A program made the position numbers and the translations under genes. From positions 21,536 through 64,798 of the forward strand of contig PMKE01000094.1 in NCBI GenBank assembly GCA_003158585.1: a stretch of 43,263 nucleotides of DNA. Reading direction: 5' to 3'. The notes beneath the pieces are model-generated. The model was given only the letters and a program-made list of their open reading frames with translations. It was not told the DNA's origin and did no database searches. This document shows, piece by piece, positions 2,172-43,083 of this stretch (position 1 is its first letter; the number at the start of each line of letters is the position of its first letter). The DNA is from Alphaproteobacteria bacterium. Lineage in GTDB: Bacteria > Pseudomonadota > Alphaproteobacteria > Micropepsales > Micropepsaceae.

Positions 2172-2425
2172 CGGAAAACTTCTTCTATGAGGGGTTTGGC
2201 GGGCGCTGAGATAGCCGGGTAGCATGGAGGTTTTCAAGCCTCGCACTGGCGGCGCCGGAGCATCTATGCCTGGAGGCCCAGCCGGCCCGATGCACAAGGC
2301 ATAGATAATTATTTTCCAACCTCTGCCTCCCCCCTCGGAGGAGGGAAGGTAAGCCGGCATGAAGACCCAAACATCAGATGGGTATCGAATCGGCCGTGAC
2401 AAGGTCCCAGCGATTCGCAGCCCGC
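2172..2425. other. Intergenic region upstream of yebC with a small G/C-rich hairpin
   Basis: This 254-base stretch separates yebC from the OpgC-type gene. It holds an AT-rich patch near 2300-2320 and a short palindrome of the form CCTCC...GGAGG near 2328-2345. The palindrome resembles the ends of the larger intergenic repeat upstream of thiE. I see no convincing gene; the open frames across it are continuations or shadows of the neighbours. Confidence 0.4.
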
Positions 2426-3604
2426 TCAGAGCCGCCGGTCGAAGCGTTGGCGTTCGACGACAGGCACCGGTACCTCCCGACTTGCCGGCAGAGAAAGCAG
2501 GCGTCCGCCGTTGCGGGCCCACTGAAGATAGGCGGCGAAGACAAACTGAAGGCCGACCCCAATAACGCACAACGCCGTCTGCAGCCATGCGTTCTGCCCG
2601 TCCAGGAACGACGCCAGGAGAGTAAGGCTTGAGAGCAGCGCACCGAAGCAGAAGACCTGCAATGAGGATTGCCCGCACCAGACGACAAGCAGCGTAGGCC
2701 AGTAACGCAGCAAGGCCCCGCGGGGCGGCAGTAATCGGCCGACGACCAAAGCAAGCGCCAACAAACTGACGATACGCAGGGGCTGGAGCGAACTCTTATC
2801 GAGCGGCAGATCGGCCGTACGGAGCAAGGGGATGGCGGGGTTTATCCCATACAGAACGATGCTCAACTGGAGGACGGCGATTATTCCCGTCAGGGCTGCG
2901 GCGGCCCAGAACAGCAGCCGGGAATCGAGGAACGCCATCTGCCCCTTCAACCTCGGATGGCCGAATACGGCGCCGAGCACGAAAAGGAACTGCCAGGCGA
3001 AGGGATTGAAGAACCAGTGTTCGCCGATGGTGATCGTCAGATTGAGGCTGAAAACCTGCACTGACAGCCAGAGCGCGAAGGAAGGCACGAGCACATACCA
3101 CACGTTCCGAGCCAATCCGGCGAGCGCCAGCGGGAAGAACGCCAGCAACAGAACATAGGACGGCAGAATATCCAGATAAGCGGGCTGGAAACGCAGGATC
3201 AGCGCCTGTCCCACCATCTCCAAGGGATATTCGAAGAACTGGGAGATGCGGAAGGGCGCAATCAGGTTCCAGTCGGCGTTCAACAACAAGAAGACGCTGA
3301 CCTCGATCAGGATCAACGCAAGCAGCAGGAGCTGGGCGGCGTAGACGACCAAGGCACGCCGCAGCACCCTGCGGGCTGCCGCGAAGAAGCCTTGCTGCAT
3401 CATGAGGCGTCCGTAGACGAGCGCCGCAACGAAGCCGGAGATGAAGAAGAACACCTCGGCCGCGTCGGCAAAGGCATAGGCGTGCAGCGTGTACGGTTCG
3501 AAGATGTTCTTCGGCACGTGATCGATGAAGATGATCAGTAGCGCGAGACCGCGCAGAAAATCGATGCGCTCGTCGCGCCTTGACGTGACGGCCCTTGCGA
3601 TCAT
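2426..3604 (-). CDS. OpgC-type polytopic membrane acyltransferase
   Basis: The product is a ~392-residue integral membrane protein of the OpgC/acyltransferase-3-like type. In proteobacteria such proteins add succinyl or similar groups to periplasmic glucans; the actual substrate here is unknown. It starts near [19 protein letters not shown], with the characteristic R-x-D-F-L-R-G-hydrophobic first helix followed by [14 protein letters not shown]. About ten hydrophobic segments follow. The phrase [16 protein letters not shown] (about 65-80) and [18 protein letters not shown] (about 210-227) are typical of OpgC. An in-frame start exists at 3724, but the extra sequence is low-complexity and Arg/Pro-rich, so 3604 is preferred. 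It has no operon partner. Confidence 0.82.
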
Positions 3605-3869
3605 CCCGGTGCGGATGCTGTTGAAAAAGCTACTCGACAAACAAAGATCTCCGGAAGCGGACCGCCGCGGCGGCGGTCGTCCGTGCGGCGGGCGCACTCT
3701 CGGGTAATCGGCAGAAGAAAACAAAGTGAATCTTTTGCCGCGCCGGTGCCAGATGTCGCGTGGCTGGCCGCGAAAATACGTATTACCGAGGCTCTATCTG
3801 CCTCTATCGCCCACAAAAAACATCTTAAGTGAGGTGAGCCTGGGTCATTGCGGCAAAATCTTGGCGTCG

Positions 3870-3891
3870 AAAAAAAACGAACTCGCGTTCG
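3870..3891 (-). terminator. Probable rho-independent terminator of the GPH-GH94 operon
   Basis: Reading on the minus strand just after the GH94 stop, a short hairpin CGAAC-GCGA-GTTCG is followed by eight T residues. The stem is only five base pairs but the T-run is perfect and the position, 5 bases after the stop codon, is right for the end of the two-gene sugar operon. Confidence 0.5.
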
Positions 3892-3895
3892 GTGT

Positions 3896-6289
3896 TCACC
3901 CCATTTCCACGACGACCTGATTCTCTGCGGCCAGCTTGTCGGCGGGGATAAGGTTGCCCGGAAGCGGCGAGCCATTCAGGACGAGCTTCTTCACACCCTT
4001 CTGGACGCCCGCGGGATTGCGCACTTCCACATGTACCTTCCTGCCGCGGAAGAGGCGCGTCGCCTTAAAGCCCTTCCACGAGGCGGGTATGCAGGGATCG
4101 ATCCTGAGGCCGCCGTAATCTGGCCGGATGCCGAGGATGTATTGCGTAGCAGCGTAATACGACCAAGCGGCCGATCCGGAGAGCCACGGCACGCGCGAGG
4201 CGCCAGAGCGCGGGCTCGCCGTCGAATGCGTGAACTGGCAATAGACATAAGGCTCGATCTCGCGGATTTCGGCGCGCTCGTTCCAGGCGGCCGGCATCGT
4301 GGCGCGGAAATATCGCCAGGCGAGGTCGCCGTGACCCAGCATAGTTTCGGCAATTACCGCCCAGCCTTGGATGTGGGTGAAGATGGAGCCGTTCTCTTTC
4401 ATGCCTGGATTAAAGAGGACCGCGCGCATGACCTGCATGTCGGTCTCGACGAAGGGCGGTGCGCAAATCATCAGCCCGTTCTCGGTGGCGAGCCTCTCCT
4501 GCATCGCCTGCATGGCGGAGGCCGCGCGCCCCGCGTCGGCATGCCCGCTCAGCACGGCCCAGGATTGGGGGCTGAGGAAAATGCTGCCTTCTTTGTTCTC
4601 GCGAGAGCCGAATTTGGTGCCGTCGCCGCCATAGGCGCGCAGATACCAATCGCCGTCCCAGGCGTATTCGCGCAGGGCACGATCGAGACCTTCAAGGCGT
4701 TCTTCCGTCCAGGCCTCTTCGTCGCCGATGCCGAGGAGGCGACAAACTTCGATATAAACCGCCAGCGCATAGCGGAGCTGGAATCCCACAAACACCGTCT
4801 CACCCTTCTCGCCGAGACGGATGCAATCGTTCCAGTCGGCTGAGAGGCCGCACGGCAACCCGTGTATGCCGACGCGCTTCAGATTGAACGCGATGGCCCG
4901 CTTCAAATGACCGAGCACCGTGTCCTCGCCCTTATCCGCATAGGGCAGCACCTTGTGGAAGAAGGCGACATCGCCCGTTTCCTTGACGTAGGCGGGGACG
5001 GCGTTGAACAGCCACATGCAGTCGTCGGAGCGGTATTCCATCTCCCTCGGCGCCTGCTCGTGACCCGGGTGGTGGGCGAACTGCTTGACCACCGGCATGG
5101 CCCCACCCGTGGAAACCTGACCCGTGATCATCAACTCGAGACGTTTCACGGCCTCGGCGGGAATGGCGTGCAGCACGCCCAGCATGTCCTGCACGGTGTC
5201 GCGATAGCCGAGCCCGTCGCGTTCGCCCGCATAGATGAGGCTCGCCGCGCGCGACCAGGCATAGGTGACGAGGCAGTTGAACGGCCCCCACATCGCCAGC
5301 ATGGAGTTGAAGGCGGGATCGGGCGTTTCGGCTTCGAACCCGGCCATGCGCCCGTGCCAATAGGCCTTGAGGCGCTTCAGTTCGTCGTCGACCTTTGCGG
5401 GGTTCTTGAATTCGGCGGCGGCGCTGCGGCCTTCCTCGCGCGCCCGACCCACGCCCATCAGGACGAGGAATTCCTTCGTCTCGCCGGGCTTGAGTTCGAT
5501 ATGGGTTTCGAGCACGCCGCAACCGTTGTCGCCCACCGCCAGCGAATTGGTGCAGCGACCGCGCTCTAAGACGGCGGGTTTCGCATAACTCCCGTAAGGC
5601 CCCAGGAACGCGGTGCGGTCGGTGTCGTAGCCCGCGACCTCGGCGCCGACGAGGGCTAGGAAGCTGTGGCGGCCCTGATCGGGTTCCTCGAAGTTCTCCG
5701 GCTTCAAGGGAATGTGGACATTGGTGCCGTGGTCGATGATGCCGTCTTCGACGGACATCCGCACGATGAACTGCGAGTACTGGAGATTGACGAGGTCGTT
5801 GTAGGCGCTCCAATTGCCGGCATATTCGACATAGGTGAAGGCGGCGAGCCGGCGCGGCTTCCTGCCCGTGTTGGTGAGCTTGACGCGCCAGCATTCGAAA
5901 TCGCGGCCGAGGGGGACAAAGTAAGTCGTCTCAGAGCGGATGCTGGAATATTCCGAAGCGATGACGGTATAGGCGCTGCCGTGCCGGCATTCCGACTTGA
6001 ATTGGTCGAGCGGCTTGCCCACGGGTTGCCAGGAGGCAGACCAGTAATCGCCGCTTTCTTCGTCGCGAAGATAGATATATCGGCCCGGCTGATCGAGCGG
6101 CACGGCGTTGAAGCGCAGACGCGTGAAGCGGCCTTGCGCCGCGGATTTGTAGAAGCTGTAGCCGCCGGCATTGTTGGTGATGATGGCGCCGTATTCGGTG
6201 GAGCCGAGATAATTGCTCCACGAGCGGGGCGTATCCGGCCTTGTGATGACGTATTCCTTGTTGGCGTCGTCGAAATAACCGAATTGCAT
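3896..6289 (-). CDS. GH94 family disaccharide phosphorylase (cellobiose phosphorylase-like)
   Basis: The 797-residue product belongs to GH94 (formerly glycosyltransferase family 36). These cytoplasmic enzymes cleave beta-linked disaccharides with phosphate to give a sugar-1-phosphate and a free sugar. Visible signatures are the N-terminal beta-sandwich start MQFGYFDDANKEYVITRPDTP, the helical-barrel motif GLGYRDTVQDMLGV, the catalytic aspartate block GLSADWNDC, and the C-terminal YILGIRPDYGGLRIDPCIP. The length matches cellobiose and chitobiose phosphorylases. The partner is a GPH symporter one base upstream, indicating import then phosphorolysis, which saves one ATP per disaccharide. Cellobiose is the most likely substrate but laminaribiose or other beta-linked disaccharides are not excluded. 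Confidence 0.93.
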   Translation of the reverse strand: MQFGYFDDANKEYVITRPDTPRSWSNYLGSTEYGAIITNNAGGYSFYKSAAQGRFTRLRFNAVPLDQPGRYIYLRDEESGDYWSASWQPVGKPLDQFKSECRHGSAYTVIASEYSSIRSETTYFVPLGRDFECWRVKLTNTGRKPRRLAAFTYVEYAGNWSAYNDLVNLQYSQFIVRMSVEDGIIDHGTNVHIPLKPENFEEPDQGRHSFLALVGAEVAGYDTDRTAFLGPYGSYAKPAVLERGRCTNSLAVGDNGCGVLETHIELKPGETKEFLVLMGVGRAREEGRSAAAEFKNPAKVDDELKRLKAYWHGRMAGFEAETPDPAFNSMLAMWGPFNCLVTYAWSRAASLIYAGERDGLGYRDTVQDMLGVLHAIPAEAVKRLELMITGQVSTGGAMPVVKQFAHHPGHEQAPREMEYRSDDCMWLFNAVPAYVKETGDVAFFHKVLPYADKGEDTVLGHLKRAIAFNLKRVGIHGLPCGLSADWNDCIRLGEKGETVFVGFQLRYALAVYIEVCRLLGIGDEEAWTEERLEGLDRALREYAWDGDWYLRAYGGDGTKFGSRENKEGSIFLSPQSWAVLSGHADAGRAASAMQAMQERLATENGLMICAPPFVETDMQVMRAVLFNPGMKENGSIFTHIQGWAVIAETMLGHGDLAWRYFRATMPAAWNERAEIREIEPYVYCQFTHSTASPRSGASRVPWLSGSAAWSYYAATQYILGIRPDYGGLRIDPCIPASWKGFKATRLFRGRKVHVEVRNPAGVQKGVKKLVLNGSPLPGNLIPADKLAAENQVVVEMG

Positions 6290-21278: not shown

Positions 21279-21839
21279 ATGCAGGTAATCGTCTTCGACT
21301 TCTTCGGCGTCATCTGTTCAGAGATCGCGCCCTTCGTGCTGCCCAAATACATGTCGAAGGAAGACGCCGTCGCCTACAAAGCCACTATCGTGGGCGATGC
21401 GGACGTGGGACGCATCACGCAGGACGAGATGTTCGCCAAACTGTCGAAGCTGGCGCATGCCCCGCCGAAGCAGCTCGAAGAGGACTTCTGGTCCTTCGTG
21501 CGGATCGACGCCGAGATTGTGAAACTGATCGAGGAGTTGCGTGCCAAATACCGCGTGGCGATGCTGACCAACGCCATCGTGCCCTTCTTCCGCCAAGTGA
21601 CGGCGAAACACGATCTGGAGAGGTTGTTCGAGACGATCCTGGTGTCGTCCGAGGAAGGGCTCGCCAAGCCCGATCCCGCTTTCTACACGCTGCTTACCGA
21701 GCGCATGGCGGTGCGGCCCGAAGACTGCCTTTTCATCGACGATAACGCAGTCAACCTCGACGGCGCGCGCGCCGCAGGAATGAAGACACTGCTGTTCGAA
21801 GGCGTGGAAAAACTCAGACGCGACCTGGCCGCTCTATAA
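21279..21839 (+). CDS. HAD superfamily (subfamily IA-like) hydrolase
   Basis: The 186-residue protein has all the HAD motifs in order. Motif I is VIVFDFFGVI (nucleophile Asp7), motif II is AMLTNAI, the motif III lysine is in EGLAKPDPAFY, and motif IV is CLFIDDNAVNLDGA. It resembles YihX-type phosphatases. The second acidic residue of the DxD motif is replaced by Phe9; many YihX relatives have Gly here, so activity on phosphate esters is likely reduced or altered. It is a single gene 28 bases after the methyltransferase-like gene, possibly cotranscribed. Confidence 0.85.
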   Translation: MQVIVFDFFGVICSEIAPFVLPKYMSKEDAVAYKATIVGDADVGRITQDEMFAKLSKLAHAPPKQLEEDFWSFVRIDAEIVKLIEELRAKYRVAMLTNAIVPFFRQVTAKHDLERLFETILVSSEEGLAKPDPAFYTLLTERMAVRPEDCLFIDDNAVNLDGARAAGMKTLLFEGVEKLRRDLAAL

Positions 21840-37004: not shown

Positions 37005-37595
37005 TGGAATTTTCCTCTGCGAATCAAAAGAGACCTTATTCTAAAGCATTTTCTGCAAACACAAGACGGGAGATGTGCAAAAAACTGCGGAAAAATGGGC
37101 TATTTCGGGGGATGAAGCGGGTTTGCGCCGTGCGGCGCGTTGAATCACGCCCTTCCGCAGACGGGGGCGTCCTCTTCGGAAGCCCATATTTTCGGTATTT
37201 GACGAACCTCGGCGGCACTTCAAGCAAAGCCTCTCTCCCGATCTACGCCGTCATTGGCGGGCGACGACTTCACCCGTGGCGACAGCCTAGGCCGTCTGAC
37301 GCGCAGACGAAGCCCTGCGTAAGGCGGCGATGCCGGGGCACATGGAAGTAGTCGCCGCGCTTTTCTCAATCATCCTTTTCCCGAAGAGCGGGTAAACACG
37401 TTCTGCACTTTATTATCATTATATGCTATACACCCTTATTGCCGCATTATTCAGATTACTTTGGGGTTTGCTTGCGGCAACCCTGCGCGCTTTGTACCCT
37501 AGTTTATTCGTGTTCGAGTTCGGCGACGGATTCGAGTTCCGCGTTTGTTTGGGGCGCATGCGGAAAACAGTCGCCGCCGCCGCGCGGGGCTTGAT
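37005..37595. other. 591-base divergent control region between HU-like gene and CXXX-peptide operon
   Basis: No gene is supported. On the HU side (minus strand) a candidate promoter has TAGAAT at 37038-37043 with TTGTGT or CTTGTG at about 37059-37065. The central part contains long-range palindromes such as CTGCGGAA (37084-37091) / TTCCGCAG (37151-37158). From 37400 to 37460 the sequence becomes markedly AT-rich, with a Fur-like ATTATCATTAT and -10-like TATGCTATAC, presumably the operon promoter. An 8-base stem follows in the leader (37439-37446 with 37473-37480). Confidence 0.5.
37405..37432 (+). promoter_or_regulatory. AT-rich promoter with Fur-box-like core ahead of the CXXX-peptide operon
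   Basis: ATTATCATTAT at 37412-37422 fits the central part of the Fur consensus; read on the other strand it is ATAATGATAAT, 11 consecutive consensus bases. The best 19-base alignment on the plus strand is 12 of 19. TATGCT (37422-37427) and TATACA (37427-37432) are -10 candidates overlapping it. This would leave a leader of about 165 bases before the first gene. Regulator identity is inference. Confidence 0.42.
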
Positions 37596-38615
37596 GTGAT
37601 TGCGTCCGGTAAACACGCACTGGTGATCCTGGACAAGGGTTCGGTCCCGTTCTGCTACTACGAGAACCCGCATTTCCATTCCCGCGCAGAACCGCAATGG
37701 ATGCCCGCCGCCCTGCTGACGCGCATCGTCGGATATGCGCGCAAGAAGCAAATCGCCCTTACCTTCCTTTTGGGAAAGACGCGGCCGCCGGCGCAACTCG
37801 AACGGCTGATCGCCTCCCACGCCAAGATCGTTCCGCCCCCGCTCCACGAGGTCTATCCCGACGCGGTGTTGGTGCTAGACGCGGAAGAGCGTTCCTCCTT
37901 TGCCGCCTTGAGCAGGTCTCTCGACCGGAACGTCATCCTGCGCGTCTCCAGCCCCAAGGGATGCAGCGACCTCGTTGAATCCCTCATCGGCAAATTCAGG
38001 CGCCTCAGCCTGCATCTGGTGGGCCAGGAGTATTTTGGGGCGGCGGAACTTGCCGCCTACGAACGCGAGTTGAGCAAGATCTCCAAAAAGCTGGCCGAGC
38101 AGTTCCGCGACGGCGAGACGCTCGAGTTCAACGTCCTGACCGACCGGATGATGCTGACTGTGATGCGCAACTGCGGCGCGGGCATCGATCACCTGACGAT
38201 TGCGCCCAACGGAAAAAGTTACATCTGTCCGGGGTTCTATTACGATAACGAGGAAGACTTCGTCGGCGTGTTCGACGACAAGACGGGGATTGCCGCCGGG
38301 CCGGTGCGCGGCACCGAGCTTTCGCGCGCGCCGCTCTGCTCGCGCTGCGATGCTTTCCACTGCAAGCGCTGCATCTATCTGAACCGGAAGACGACCCTGG
38401 AACTGAACGTTCCCTCCGAGCAGCAATGCGCGGTCTCGCACGTCGAACGGAAAGCCTCGCGGCAGCTGTTGACCGGCCTCGGTTCTCTCGAGCCCTTCCG
38501 CAGGATGCCGCGCATCCCGGAATTGAATTATCGCGATCCGCTCGAATGCATCGACGCCCCGCCGCGCGATGCCGGGCAGCGCGCTACCGATCCGTCCACC
38601 GATCCGATGCTGTGA
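37596..38615 (+). CDS. CXXX-repeat peptide maturase-like protein (SPASM-type cysteines, no radical SAM core)
   Basis: The ~339-residue product resembles proteins annotated as CXXX repeat peptide maturase. Its N-terminus HALVILDKGSVPFCYYENP fits that family's typical start (xxLDxxSVxFCxYxN). The N-terminal ~190 residues have no CxxxCxxC radical SAM motif. The C-terminal part has a SPASM-like cysteine pattern: Cys193, then Gly206 and Cys211 (CX12GX4C), Cys248-x2-Cys251-x4-Cys256-x2-Cys259, and Cys278. So it probably binds Fe-S clusters and helps the true radical SAM enzyme encoded downstream. The start is uncertain: GTG at 37596 is used, a TTG at 37545 adds 17 Arg-rich residues. It heads the operon, 8 bases before the next gene. 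Confidence 0.78.
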   Translation: MIASGKHALVILDKGSVPFCYYENPHFHSRAEPQWMPAALLTRIVGYARKKQIALTFLLGKTRPPAQLERLIASHAKIVPPPLHEVYPDAVLVLDAEERSSFAALSRSLDRNVILRVSSPKGCSDLVESLIGKFRRLSLHLVGQEYFGAAELAAYERELSKISKKLAEQFRDGETLEFNVLTDRMMLTVMRNCGAGIDHLTIAPNGKSYICPGFYYDNEEDFVGVFDDKTGIAAGPVRGTELSRAPLCSRCDAFHCKRCIYLNRKTTLELNVPSEQQCAVSHVERKASRQLLTGLGSLEPFRRMPRIPELNYRDPLECIDAPPRDAGQRATDPSTDPML

Positions 38616-38623
38616 GGCCCCGC

Positions 38624-38980
38624 ATGCCGAAAAAGGTCAAAGCGAAGAAAATCCCGGCCAAAAGCGCCCCGATGGAGCCGAGCGCCGTCGTCGTCGGCAA
38701 GGTGAGCCTCAAGGAGCGCGACGAGATCCAGGCTCTGTTCGAGCGCCGCAACGGCCTCCTCGAACTTGTCCAATCCCTGTCGCAGAACGGCAGCGGCATG
38801 CTGGACAACGCCGCCTTCTACGAAAAAGTGGTTGCCGACCTCGGCAAGACGACCACCCGCTTCAAGAAGTGGTGGGACGAAAAAGCCAAGGCATACGGCT
38901 GGCAAGGCAGGCCCGGCTGGCAATGGTCGATCGACTTCGACAGCTGCCAGATCAGCCTGAACAAACCCAATAAGTCCTGA
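38624..38980 (+). CDS. CXXX-repeat peptide modification system accessory protein
   Basis: The 118-residue product has a Lys/Pro-rich N-terminus (about 1-20). A compact domain follows: VGKVSLKERDEIQALFERRNGLLELVQSL, a middle FYEKVVADLGKTTTRFKKWWDEKAKAYGW, and an end WSIDFDSCQISLN. This matches my recollection of the small accessory protein that goes with CXXX-repeat peptide maturases (ERDEIQxLFERxNxLxEL... FxKWWDEKxxxYxW). Its role is unknown; a leader-binding or scaffold function is a guess. It sits 8 bases after the maturase-like gene and 17 bases before the first precursor gene. Confidence 0.75.
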   Translation: MPKKVKAKKIPAKSAPMEPSAVVVGKVSLKERDEIQALFERRNGLLELVQSLSQNGSGMLDNAAFYEKVVADLGKTTTRFKKWWDEKAKAYGWQGRPGWQWSIDFDSCQISLNKPNKS

Positions 38981-38997
38981 CGAAAAGGAATACCGAC

Positions 38998-39255
38998 ATG
39001 TCGAAGAAAACGGAATCCGGCAGCAAGATGGACCGCCGCGGCTTCCTGAAATCGGGAGCGAAGGTCATTCCTGCACTGGCCGTGCTTGGGATCGGTCTCA
39101 CTGCCGTGTCCACGCCGGCGCGTGCCGACTGCTTCGGCTCCTGCAATGCCTCGTGCGCCGACAACTGCGTCGAGAGTTGCAAGGGCGACTGCATGGGCGA
39201 CTGCAAGGGTACCTGCGGCGGTTGCGACAACACCTGCACGAGCGACAGCAAGTAA
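38998..39255 (+). CDS. CXXX-repeat precursor peptide 1 (Tat-like leader, 10 Cys)
   Basis: The 85-residue precursor has a leader of 43 residues (MDRRGFLKSGAKVIPALAVL, then ...TPARA) with a twin-arginine motif and an A-x-A type cleavage site before Asp44. The core begins at Cys45 and repeats Cys every four residues (45, 49, 53, 57, 61, 65, 69, 73). It then breaks register with a CGGC (73-76) and ends at Cys80. Spacer residues are Gly, Asp, Ser, Asn and Lys. It is the shortest of three tandem precursors and the only one with a register break. AAGGAA precedes the ATG. Confidence 0.85.
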   Translation: MSKKTESGSKMDRRGFLKSGAKVIPALAVLGIGLTAVSTPARADCFGSCNASCADNCVESCKGDCMGDCKGTCGGCDNTCTSDSK

Positions 39256-39297
39256 ATCACGCGCTTCCGAGGCGCCGACCTGGGTGAGGAATTTGCC

Positions 39298-39657
39298 ATG
39301 ACGCGGAAACTCGACCGGCGCGGCTTTCTCAAGAGCGGAAGCAAGGTCATCCCTGCCATTGCATTTCTCGGGCTGGGCCTGGGGGTGCCGCTGCCGGCGC
39401 GCGCCGATTGCGATTCCGGATGCCAAGGCAGTTGCTCCGGAGGTTGTGACGGAAGCTGTACCGGCGGGTGTCAGGACAGCTGCGAAGCACAATGCGCCGA
39501 CAACTGCTCGGGCTCGTGCAAAGCGGCCTGCGCGACAGATTGCGAGTCGAGCTGCACCGCCGCGTGCGCGGCCGACTGCGTAACCAGCTGTCAGGGCGAA
39601 TGCAGAGGGACGTGTGAGACAAGCTGCCAAGGCAGTCTCACCGCACCATCCAATTAA
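39298..39657 (+). CDS. CXXX-repeat precursor peptide 2 (Tat-like leader, 19 Cys)
   Basis: The 119-residue precursor has a 36-residue leader (DRRGFLKSGSKVIPAIAF... PLPARA). Nineteen cysteines follow in perfect CXXX spacing from Cys38 to Cys110, and a short tail QGSLTAPSN. The intervening triplets are Gly/Ser/Asp/Ala/Thr-rich. The leader is almost the same as in the neighbours (DRRxFLKSGxKVxP), so all three are probably recognised by the same enzymes. Modification would occur in the cytoplasm before Tat export, as expected for oxygen-sensitive radical SAM chemistry. Confidence 0.87.
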   Translation: MTRKLDRRGFLKSGSKVIPAIAFLGLGLGVPLPARADCDSGCQGSCSGGCDGSCTGGCQDSCEAQCADNCSGSCKAACATDCESSCTAACAADCVTSCQGECRGTCETSCQGSLTAPSN

Positions 39658-39746
39658 GCCTGATGCCGATGATGGGAATTGACGAAACGAAAGGTGAGTG
39701 ATCCGCGTACGATTTTCTGCAGAACGGGAAAAATCGAGGGCACGAC

Positions 39747-40139
39747 ATGAAAAAACAGTCCAAAACCGGCAAGAACCTGGACAGGCGGTTGTTTCTCAAA
39801 TCCGGCGGCAAGGTGCTTCCCACCTTCGCTGTCATCGGGCTCGGGCTCACCGTTCCGCTGATCGCGCGCGCCGACTGCGAAGGCAGTTGCGAGGGCGATT
39901 GCTCGGGAAGTTGCGAGGGAAGCTGCTCGGGCAACTGCACCGCCAACTGCGCCAACGACTGCTCCGGCGGCTGCGAGAACGGCTGCATGGAAAGCTGCAC
40001 CGCCAATTGCATGAACGAATGCGAAGGCGCCTGCTCCGGCTCCTGCAAGGACGACTGCCTGAACGAATGCCTGCACACTTGTATCGGTAGCTGCAGTTTC
40101 TATTGCACGGCCGCCTGTCAGAGCAGTAGCCAAGGCTGA
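39747..40139 (+). CDS. CXXX-repeat precursor peptide 3 (Tat-like leader, 21 Cys)
   Basis: The 130-residue precursor carries a 42-residue leader (LDRRLFLKSGGKVLPTFAVI... PLIARA). Twenty-one cysteines follow at exact four-residue spacing from Cys44 to Cys124, ending CQSSSQG. Compared with peptide 2 the triplets are richer in Asn, Glu and Met, including a hydrophobic stretch CLHTCIGSCSFYC near the end. The open frame starts cleanly behind GAGGG. It is the last precursor before the radical SAM gene, 77 bases upstream of it. Confidence 0.87.
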   Translation: MKKQSKTGKNLDRRLFLKSGGKVLPTFAVIGLGLTVPLIARADCEGSCEGDCSGSCEGSCSGNCTANCANDCSGGCENGCMESCTANCMNECEGACSGSCKDDCLNECLHTCIGSCSFYCTAACQSSSQG

Positions 40140-40216
40140 AAAAGCGCCACGGCCGCGAGATCGGCGGGATCAAGTTTGTTACGCTCCCGAAGTCACGGGA
40201 ACACCGCGAGGATAAG

Positions 40217-41392
40217 ATGGTGGAGCTTCGGGAGCCGAGACGGGAAGAGCGCCCAAAATCCTGGCAGGAAGGACGCGCCAAGACGGTGACGTTCATCGTC
40301 ACCGAGGATTGCCAGCTTCGCTGCAAGTACTGCTACCTGGCGGGCAAGAACAAGACCAGCAAGATGAACTTCGAGATCGCGCGGGCGACCATCGACCATC
40401 TTCTGCGCAATCGCGAGCAATTCAACGAAGGTTCGGTGATCTGGGATTTCATCGGCGGCGAGCCGTTCCTGGAAATCGACCTGATCGACCGCATTTCGGA
40501 CTATGCGAAGCTGCGGATGTACGAAACGGACCATCCCTGGTTCAACAACTACCGCTTCAGCTTCTCCACCAACGGCCTGCTCTACGGCAAGGACAAGGTC
40601 CAGCGCTACATCGCCAAGAACCGCAGCCACATCTCGATCGGCCTCAGCATCGACGGAACGAAGCGCAAGCACGATTCTCAGCGCATCTTTCCCAACGGCC
40701 GGGGCTCCTACGACGCGGTGGCCAAGAACATCCCGCTATGGCTGGCGCAATTCCCCGCCGCCTCGACCAAGGCGACGATCTCCCACGACGACATCCCCTT
40801 CATCAAGGAAAGCGTGGCGCACCTATTCTCGCTGGGCATCAGGGTCGTCAACATGAACGTCGTCAACGAGGACGTCTGGCAGGACGGCGACGACAAGCTG
40901 TTCGAGAAGCAGCTCATGGAGCTGGCCGACACCATCATCGACAACGACCTGACACGCGAACACACCTGCTCGCTGTTTTCGAGATTCATCGGCAAACCGC
41001 TCAGCCCTGAGGACGACCGCAACTGGTGCGGCGCCGGCAAGATGCTGGCAGTGGACAGCGACGGCATTTTTTATCCCTGTGTGCGTTTCGCGCCCTACTC
41101 GCTGACGCACCAGCTCGGCAGGGCCATCGGCAACTGCTACGACGGCATCGACCGCAACAAGCTGCGCCCGTTCCTGGCGATGACAAGGCGCTCGCAGTCG
41201 AGCGAAGAGTGCCTCGGCTGCGAGGTCGCCAGCGGCTGCTCGTGGTGCAGCGGCTGCAATTACGATGTGTCGAAAAGCGCGACGATCTACGAACGCGCCA
41301 CGTTCCTCTGTAAAATGCACAAGGCGCGCGTCAGAGCGAACCGGTATTTCTGGAAAAAGCTGGACAAGCAGACGCGCGCCGCGCCGCGTTGA
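40217..41392 (+). CDS. Radical SAM/SPASM peptide maturase, CXXX-repeat target type
   Basis: The 391-residue enzyme carries the radical SAM motif CQLRCKYC (Cys32, Cys36, Cys39; CX3CX2C) after TFIVTE, and the SAM-binding GGEP (80-83). The SPASM region has Cys271-x11-Gly-x4-Cys288, then Cys332-x2-Cys335-x5-Cys341-x2-Cys344-x2-Cys347, and Cys365, enough for two auxiliary Fe-S clusters. Such SPASM enzymes make thioether or C-C crosslinks in ribosomal peptides; the precise reaction on the CXXX repeats is unknown. GAGGATAAG precedes the ATG. It is the last gene of the peptide operon, before a Tat-type GH43. Confidence 0.92.
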   Translation: MVELREPRREERPKSWQEGRAKTVTFIVTEDCQLRCKYCYLAGKNKTSKMNFEIARATIDHLLRNREQFNEGSVIWDFIGGEPFLEIDLIDRISDYAKLRMYETDHPWFNNYRFSFSTNGLLYGKDKVQRYIAKNRSHISIGLSIDGTKRKHDSQRIFPNGRGSYDAVAKNIPLWLAQFPAASTKATISHDDIPFIKESVAHLFSLGIRVVNMNVVNEDVWQDGDDKLFEKQLMELADTIIDNDLTREHTCSLFSRFIGKPLSPEDDRNWCGAGKMLAVDSDGIFYPCVRFAPYSLTHQLGRAIGNCYDGIDRNKLRPFLAMTRRSQSSEECLGCEVASGCSWCSGCNYDVSKSATIYERATFLCKMHKARVRANRYFWKKLDKQTRAAPR

Positions 41393-41454: not shown

Positions 41455-43083
41455 ATGCCGATGTTCAATCGTCGCCAAACCCTGGGGTCCTTCCTGACCG
41501 GCGCTGCCGCGCTCGCTGCGCCGGGAGCACACGCCAAACCGCGGGGTACTGCGGCGGCCATATCCGCCTCCGGTTTGGAATGGGCCGCGATGAAATGGGC
41601 GCGCGGCATCGAAGGTCAGCGAAAGGCCGACCTCGGCAACGGCACGTTCCTCAATCCCATCCTGAGCGGCGACCACGCCGATCCCAGCATCCTGAAGGAA
41701 GGCAACGACTATTACCTGACCTTCTCGACCTTCGATGCCTATCCCGGGCTCGCGATCTGGCATTCGCGCGATCTGGTGAACTGGCAGCCGGTCGGTTCCG
41801 CGCTGAAAAAGCCGATCGGTTCGGTATGGGCGCCGGATTTGTGCAGGCACGAAGGGCGATACTACATCTACATCCCGACGCGCGGTGCGCAGCGCAACAC
41901 CATCTGGGTCATCACCGCAGAGAACATTCACGGACCCTGGAGCGATCCGGTCGATCTCGATCTGCCGCGCCACATCGATCCCAATCATGTCGTCGGCGAA
42001 GACGGCAGGCGCTATCTAGCACTGAGCGGCGGCGACCTCGTCGCCTTGACGCCGGACGGCATGGCGACCGCGGGCGCCGTGGAGCACATCTACGATCCGT
42101 GGCGTTATCCCGAGGATTGGGTGGTCGAGTCCTTCTCGCCCGAGGGACCGAAGATCTTTCGGCATGGAGAGTATTATTACATGCTGACGGCCGTCGGCGG
42201 CACGGCAGGACCTCCGACCGGCCACATGGTTGTCGCAGCGCGGGCGCGTTCGTTGCACGGCCCGTGGGAGAATTCACCGAACAATCCCCTGGTGCGGACC
42301 ACATCGGCGGCAGAGAAGTGGTGGTCGCGCGGCCACGCCTCGGCAGTGGAAGGGCCTGACGGAAGCTGGTGGCTGATCTATCACGGCTACGAAAACGGCT
42401 TCTGGACGCTGGGCCGCCAGACGCTTCTGGCGCCCATGAGCTGGACGAAGGACGGCTGGATCAGGGCCGGAGGCGGCGATCTCTCGCATCCGCTGCGTAA
42501 GCCGGTGGGCGGCAGCGCCGTGCCGCACGGCATGGCTTTGTCGGACGATTTCAGGGCCGACCGCTTCGGCAGCCTGTGGAGCTTTTACGATCCTGCCACG
42601 AACGAAATGGAGCGCGTGCGCCATGATGCGGGCTCGCTCGTTCTCAAAGGCAAGGGAACCCAGCCCTTCGACAGTTCGCCCATGAGTTTCCGCGCAGGAG
42701 ATCTTGCTTACGAAGTCGAGACCGGGATCGAGATTTCCGGCGGAGCGCAGGCGGGGCTGCTGCTGTTCTACAGCCGCAGACTCTATTGCGGGCTCGGCTT
42801 CGCAGCCGACAAGTTCGTGATGCACCGTTACGGCCTGGAGCGCGTTCTGGCAAAGTCCGAAGGGATCGCAAGCCGTTTGTTCCTGCGCCTGCGCAACGAC
42901 CGCAACATCGTCACCATCCATTACAGTCCCGACCGGACGCATTGGACGAAGTTCGGCGTGCAGATGGAAGTCTCAGGCTACCATCACAACACGGCAGGCG
43001 ACTTCCTCTCGCTGCGACCTGCCGTCTATGCGGCCGGACCCGGAGAGGCCCGGTTCCTGGGAGTGCAATACAGGGCGTTGTGA
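41455..43083 (+). CDS. Tat-exported GH43 glycoside hydrolase (beta-xylosidase/arabinanase type)
   Basis: The 542-residue protein has a Tat-like signal (FNRRQTLGSFLTGAAALAA, cleavage near AHA at 27). The five-bladed GH43 propeller (about 60-350) has catalytic Asp76 in DHADPSI, Asp175 in HIDPN (pKa-tuning) and the acid Glu230 in SFSPEGPKIF, plus WAPDLC. From about 360 a beta-sandwich domain of the xylosidase C-terminal type follows (ALSDDFRADRFGSLWSFYDP...GLLLFYS...LFLRLRNDRNIVTIHYSPDRTHWTKFG). It attacks xylan or arabinan side chains in the periplasm or outside. It is 62 bases after the radical SAM gene, possibly but not certainly in its operon. Confidence 0.9.
   Translation: MPMFNRRQTLGSFLTGAAALAAPGAHAKPRGTAAAISASGLEWAAMKWARGIEGQRKADLGNGTFLNPILSGDHADPSILKEGNDYYLTFSTFDAYPGLAIWHSRDLVNWQPVGSALKKPIGSVWAPDLCRHEGRYYIYIPTRGAQRNTIWVITAENIHGPWSDPVDLDLPRHIDPNHVVGEDGRRYLALSGGDLVALTPDGMATAGAVEHIYDPWRYPEDWVVESFSPEGPKIFRHGEYYYMLTAVGGTAGPPTGHMVVAARARSLHGPWENSPNNPLVRTTSAAEKWWSRGHASAVEGPDGSWWLIYHGYENGFWTLGRQTLLAPMSWTKDGWIRAGGGDLSHPLRKPVGGSAVPHGMALSDDFRADRFGSLWSFYDPATNEMERVRHDAGSLVLKGKGTQPFDSSPMSFRAGDLAYEVETGIEISGGAQAGLLLFYSRRLYCGLGFAADKFVMHRYGLERVLAKSEGIASRLFLRLRNDRNIVTIHYSPDRTHWTKFGVQMEVSGYHHNTAGDFLSLRPAVYAAGPGEARFLGVQYRAL

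Follow-up and report, generated by a model that had tools for sequence, protein, structure and literature searches.

We find that the operon described here belongs to the CXXX-repeat RiPP type and that, at a probability of about 0.7, its peptides would first be modified in the cytosol and then pass through the Tat pathway into the periplasm, a reading drawn from sequence comparison. It lies in a window (the whole stretch of DNA analysed, 43,263 nucleotides) that covers positions 21,536 to 64,798 of the forward strand of contig PMKE01000094.1 in assembly GCA_003158585.1, from a member of the Micropepsaceae (Alphaproteobacteria). The operon itself occupies 37545-41392 and, by NCBIfam profiles, consists of one TIGR04119, one TIGR04116, three TIGR04117 and one TIGR04115 gene:

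37545-38615 (start codon approximate), + strand: TIGR04119, 'CXXX repeat peptide maturase', 212 bits against a cut-off of 150
38624-38980, + strand: TIGR04116, 'CXXX repeat peptide modification system protein', a small alpha/beta helper, 84 bits against 50
38998-39255, + strand: precursor 1, 85 aa, TIGR04117 at 52 bits against 50; leader 38998-39129 with the RR codons at 39034-39039, core 39130-39252 with 10 Cys
39298-39657, + strand: precursor 2, 119 aa, TIGR04117 at 56 bits against 50; leader 39298-39408, core 39409-39654 with 19 Cys
39747-40139, + strand: precursor 3, 130 aa, TIGR04117 at 58 bits against 50; leader 39747-39875, core 39876-40136 with 21 Cys
40217-41392, + strand: TIGR04115, radical SAM/SPASM maturase of the CXXX-repeat target family, 596 bits against 350

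All four components, TIGR04117 included, pass their curated NCBIfam cut-offs, and precursors 2 and 3 also exceed the cut-off of 20 for TIGR04114. The operon is a member of the CXXX-repeat radical SAM system catalogued in NCBIfam (TIGR04114/04115/04116/04117/04119), with the same gene content, in one operon and above the cut-offs. The founding members of TIGR04117 are, by the model name, those of Syntrophobacter. In a literature search we found no paper that names or describes the CXXX-repeat TIGR families, nor any characterised product, and we know of no product structure for the family. To the catalogued system we add the assignment to Tat, a relative with linked tatAC, the contrast with ABC-exporter and phage relatives, and the cluster-less radical-SAM fold of TIGR04119; a Tat export route for the system appears to be undescribed. 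About 60 bases past the maturase, on the same strand, begins a gene for a GH43 glycosidase (41455-43083) with a Tat-like leader of its own (NRRQTLGSFL), which we counted as a neighbour outside the system.

The precursors are as the initial annotation had described them. Three tandem reading frames within 38998-40139 share the leader (M/L)DRRxFLKSGxKVxPxxAxxGxGL, the residues ARAD stand immediately before the first cysteine in all three, and our recount agrees with the totals of 10, 19 and 21 cysteines. That annotation had missed the neighbouring TIGR04119, TIGR04116 and TIGR04115 genes of the operon, as well as the four unlinked precursors located in other parts of the genome. The leaders of precursors 1, 2 and 3 read MDRRGFLKSGAKVIPALAVLGIGL, LDRRGFLKSGSKVIPAIAFLGLGL and LDRRLFLKSGGKVLPTFAVIGLGL. 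Cysteine makes up about 25% of the cores. We count 8, 18 and 20 CX3C steps, where shuffles of the same composition give 2.0, 4.0 and 4.6; as the observed number was equalled in 0 of 10,000 shuffles, this spacing is not due to chance. The residue preceding each cysteine is variable (S, T, G, D or N). Repeats at the DNA level are weak in the precursor genes, so that conservation lies in the amino-acid pattern.

The enzyme with the recognisable cluster site is TIGR04115, which has a single CX3CX2C motif at residues 32-39 together with a SPASM-type cysteine set, and whose nearest relative by sequence among solved structures is CteB (5wgg, E 4e-37). The CX3CX2C motif is absent from TIGR04119, which retains the SPASM-type cysteines. 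Its AlphaFold model, which has a pLDDT of 68, with higher confidence for the barrel and poor confidence for the SPASM part, aligns with CteB 5wgg at Z 15.0 over 250 residues with 3.5 A rmsd, and in profile searches its C-terminal part aligns with that of the maturase; in Bacillota the two proteins are fused. Given the CteB-like fold of the model and the C-terminal alignment, TIGR04119 is best interpreted as a radical-SAM paralogue without the cluster. TIGR04116 is modelled as strand-helix-helix-strand-strand (pLDDT 86.5).

The proposal that the leaders are Tat-like is well supported. We aligned 18 precursors from four alphaproteobacterial genomes (G000, G457, G417 and L055), and the anatomy of a Tat substrate is complete in them, with a twin arginine, an uncharged and moderately hydrophobic h-region of at least 15 residues in all 18 leaders, and a cleavage site of the A-x-A type, the leader ending in a signal-peptidase-like A/V/S-x-A in 18/18. 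Both arginines are invariant (18/18), although each is spelled with four different codons; in pairwise comparison the two codons have a pN of 0.03 and 0.00 and a pS of 0.61 and 0.45, as compared with a pN of 0.27 and a pS of 0.64 over the entire leader. The host genome carries tatA-tatB-tatC in a row (tatC named by profile, tatA and tatB by eye from the ORF sequences), each of the four genomes that have such leaders encodes TatC, and a related operon, taken up below, includes tatA and tatC. The expectation that RRxFLK leaders would recur in other genomes held within the alphaproteobacterial set, where the twin arginine is present in every precursor, and failed for the Bacillota and phage relatives, which are without it. 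The evidence from profiles is uneven: in a genome-wide scan with TIGR01409 (Tat-signal) the top match is an orphan CXXX precursor and the fourth another orphan precursor, while none of the three window leaders attains E 1 in the same scan, and precursor 1 scores 12.6 bits with Pfam TAT_signal, where the cut-off is 22.7. Taken together, these sequences make Tat export of the precursors likely.

The weak scores of the three window leaders on generic Tat profiles could also be explained if the twin arginine were kept for the maturase and not for Tat, the peptides leaving by Sec or not at all, and Sec signals are indeed what bufferins use (PMC12452194). We consider this explanation very improbable, as the RRxFLK-type motif occurs at the right distance from the h-region and with an A-x-A type site in 18/18 leaders, as the twin arginine is missing from the ABC-exporter and phage relatives, and as TatC is found in all hosts of this leader and tatA and tatC are linked to the system in MT837480.1.

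Among the sequences compared, the strongest single piece of support for Tat is this tatA-tatC linkage in MT837480.1 (L221), which is one unverified scaffold from human faeces, labelled phage. Its genes, which all point the same way and are even in GC, follow one another in the order precursor-TIGR04115-TIGR04119-TIGR04116-tatA-tatC, either overlapping or separated by short gaps. The precursor has 174 aa, a leader reading QSRREFFKNAAKSVLPILG with the motif SRREFFK, and 32 cysteines, one of them within the leader; the TIGR04115 protein scores 630 bits. Since its TatC is closest to those of Bacteroides (39%) and Parabacteroides (37%), the source is probably a Bacteroidota bacterium, and the scaffold would thus probably be a bacterial fragment mislabelled as phage. 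The tatAC loci of the Bacteroides and Parabacteroides relatives are housekeeping copies with no CXXX operon linked to them, and a scan of viral contigs with the MT837480.1 rSAM gave no match. In the rSAM tree all five Tat-leader systems form one group (support 91/82).

More distant relatives carry the same kind of array behind other N-termini. Maturases about 50% identical to that of the window are found in Anaerococcus, a Clostridiaceae MAG and Tissierella. The arrays of these Bacillota have the same spacing and follow an unrelated YxSKI-type leader, and the locus also contains a gene for an ABC exporter. We did not find TatC in Tissierella, whose precursor leader is without RR; the Clostridiaceae MAG has a non-Tat precursor leader and yet encodes TatC. 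On the Anaerococcus prevotii plasmid NC_013164.1 (L046, 4632-9203) a class III lanthipeptide cluster lies right beside the CXXX system. The phage relatives of TIGR04115 (phrog_1802, 200 bits against the window rSAM) resemble the window in combining an rSAM gene, a TIGR04116-like neighbour and a Cys-array protein, and a TIGR04116-like gene stands beside most rSAM relatives. Unlike those of the window, the phage arrays sit in large, partly irregular proteins of 190-765 aa that have no signal peptide and share no leader; CX3C accounts for 96% of the Cys-Cys steps in Tat-type arrays, as against 76%, plus 21% CX2C, in the phage proteins. Judged from these comparisons, the twin arginine is not general to the whole CXXX system, and the leader would be what sets the destination.

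The viral sequences offered further observations. In one viral contig (L135, IMGVR_UViG_3300031885_000025) a 765-aa protein with 160 cysteines and 146 CX3C steps is encoded at 2303-4597, directly upstream of TIGR04116 and a TIGR04115-like rSAM gene, and is possibly a phage structural protein containing a cross-linked rod. The Cys-array proteins of many viral contigs (L136-L193) and of L058 and L059 share a domain of about 100 aa (LKxRVKxExxRRxYxGSVxxYGGxxYDF...) with no Pfam match, and the Cys arrays of the large viral proteins match phrog_6085, an entry with no assigned function. The phages of L169-L175, L177, L178 and L180 probably read TAG as an amino acid, because TAG occurs in frame 2 to 7 times in their TIGR04115-like rSAM genes, from which TAA and TGA are absent.

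The initial annotation had gone one step further and proposed that the twin-arginine leader doubles as the recognition leader for the enzymes. Three positions besides the arginines bear on this, namely P+12, A+15 and G+18 (counted from the first Arg), which are conserved in 18/18 precursors with a pN of zero and saturated synonymous sites. In the other Tat-like leaders of the same genome the three residues occur in 0/12, 3/12 and 1/12. Their zero pN and their scarcity in other Tat-like leaders point to a constraint besides Tat, and the shared ancestry of paralogues is the weaker explanation because synonymous change is saturated. Together with K+9 the three residues are spaced three apart and could lie on one face of a helix. 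The extra invariant Pro, Ala and Gly make the leader a plausible candidate for a maturase docking site, and we conjecture that the maturase complex could dock on a face made by P+12, A+15 and G+18, which would give the leader two uses. We hold this double use, for export and for docking, tentatively and at somewhat less than even odds.

A finding named beforehand as one that would speak against double use, homologues whose conserved leader lacks twin arginines, was obtained by half: homologous maturases do stand beside unrelated leaders or none, and the Tat clade nonetheless keeps P/A/G. We rejected the idea that the leader is what the maturases recognise throughout the system, as the Bacillota and phage relatives have no such leader. 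As TIGR04116-like genes accompany most relatives, a recognition element common to them would more likely be TIGR04116 or the repeat itself. An N-terminal RRE would not fit into TIGR04115, whose CX3CX2C starts at residue 32, and when the PDB was searched with the TIGR04116 model for an RRE fold, nothing matched at E<=0.001, the best entry being 2js5 with E 0.7.

That the same maturase family, together with TIGR04116, is found beside Bacillota YxSKI leaders and 190-765 aa phage proteins agrees well with a signal used for export only, in which case the maturase would recognise the Cys repeat, directly or via TIGR04116, and P/A/G would reflect ancestry or fine tuning. Such an arrangement has parallels in MNIO enzymes of the DybH/ChrH type, which recognise a minimal C-terminal motif and leave the N-terminus free as a signal peptide (PMC12636315), and in PapB, which tolerates great changes of the core (PMC9413430). 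The zero pN at P+12, A+15 and G+18 and the rarity of these residues in the genome's other Tat-like leaders are what it accounts for least well, and we give it only a little short of an even chance.

For the reading that we favor, namely modification in the cytosol followed by Tat export, we suggest the following course. TIGR04115, TIGR04119 and TIGR04116 would together modify the CX3C arrays in the cytosol, before export, most likely by intramolecular thioether links that would turn each array into a rigid rod. The Tat pathway moves cargo that is already folded; the Tat signal would export the finished peptide, and signal peptidase I would cleave after A-x-A. With Tat export and cleavage by signal peptidase I, neither a dedicated exporter nor a leader protease would be needed. 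Because Tat carries folded cargo, a Tat signal would prevent premature export, and the avoidance of premature export, raised as a problem for bufferins (PMC12452194), would be solved by design. We point out that the operon, one of whose precursors has just 10 Cys, is of a size suited to work in E. coli and would give a first handle on the function of the family.

As one enzyme family stands beside both a 10-Cys peptide and a 160-Cys protein, we suspect a structural, cross-linked rod whose destination is decided by the N-terminal part. The array is probably a structural module whose address would switch between lineages, from a Tat leader to an ABC leader or a phage protein. A bolder and rather unlikely extension is that Tat acts as a proofreading gate through which only the fully cross-linked rod is exported, with a dual-use leader, with some gut Bacteroidota carrying tatAC in the operon, and with gut phages reusing the array chemistry for rods in structural proteins.

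The system is rare among the genomes sampled. It was found in 3 of 96 genomes of its own order and in 1 of 398 sampled from the phylum; of the congeners, 2 of the 68 listed have it (G417 and G457). The Rhodospirillales MAG L055 also has it, with an rSAM identity of 73%, and no other genome of the order of that MAG scored above cut-off. In its own assembly the operon's family is more widely represented, with seven TIGR04117-type precursors, six of them above cut-off and four unlinked to the operon. The operon maturase is the only TIGR04115 member above cut-off in this genome, so the four unlinked precursors, if they are matured at all, would need the operon enzyme in trans. Their neighbours are genes for glutamate synthase, LpxC, Nramp, a mannosyltransferase-like protein and class II RNR; the adjoining of an orphan precursor and an Nramp metal transporter gene (L052, 4921-5253 and 6098-7501) is a single case. 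A metal role deduced from gene neighbourhood found no support, as these neighbours share no theme.

This bears on the role at the envelope, structural or metal-handling, which had been suggested for the peptides and which our results do not establish. The neighbourhoods have no metal theme, and the cysteines, if they become thioethers, would be poor metal ligands. In its most explicit form the suggestion would make the products exported metal-binding peptides, similar to metallothioneins or bufferins, with free or partly modified thiols, which fold around metal in the cytosol and for that reason use Tat. The high cysteine content of the cores, the Nramp neighbour of one orphan and the example of bufferins, which are exported copper-chelating Cys peptides (PMC12452194), all lend it some appeal. 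We nevertheless regard it as improbable, since the remaining orphan precursors neighbour housekeeping genes, since kinship of the maturase with thioether-forming SPASM enzymes predicts loss of thiols, and since the operon has no MNIO or metal-related gene.

Signal peptides are rare in bacterial RiPPs, and bufferins are the only ones for which experiments have demonstrated that Sec is used in the natural host (PMC12452194). A leader with two uses had been called unusual for ribosomal natural products; the rarity of export signals in RiPP precursors bears this out, and the precedents tell against it, as there is preliminary evidence that the bufferin signal peptide, a Sec signal, is part of the recognition sequence (PMC12452194), and a DybA-type RiPP uses a lipoprotein signal (PMC12636315). 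Our literature search found no Tat-exported RiPP. Bufferins, other MNIO RiPPs and DybA are like the system described here in having a Cys precursor, cytosolic modification, an ordinary signal peptide as leader and a general export pathway. The window system differs from bufferins and DybA in its radical SAM enzyme in place of an MNIO, in Tat in place of Sec or a lipoprotein signal, and in its regular CX3C arrays; no MNIO (DUF692), the enzyme encoded with a bufferin precursor, is among the operon proteins. It also stands apart from PapA-type ranthipeptides, as position i+4 holds a cysteine and not an aspartate, the residue before each cysteine varies, TIGR04115 lacks space for the N-terminal RRE, and the PapB model scores 199 bits on the window maturase, under its cut-off of 340. 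PapB/PapA and CteB/SCIFF are nevertheless the relatives of the maturase, being thioether-forming SPASM systems, and the four-residue step of the arrays is that of the CX3D of PapA (PMC9413430).
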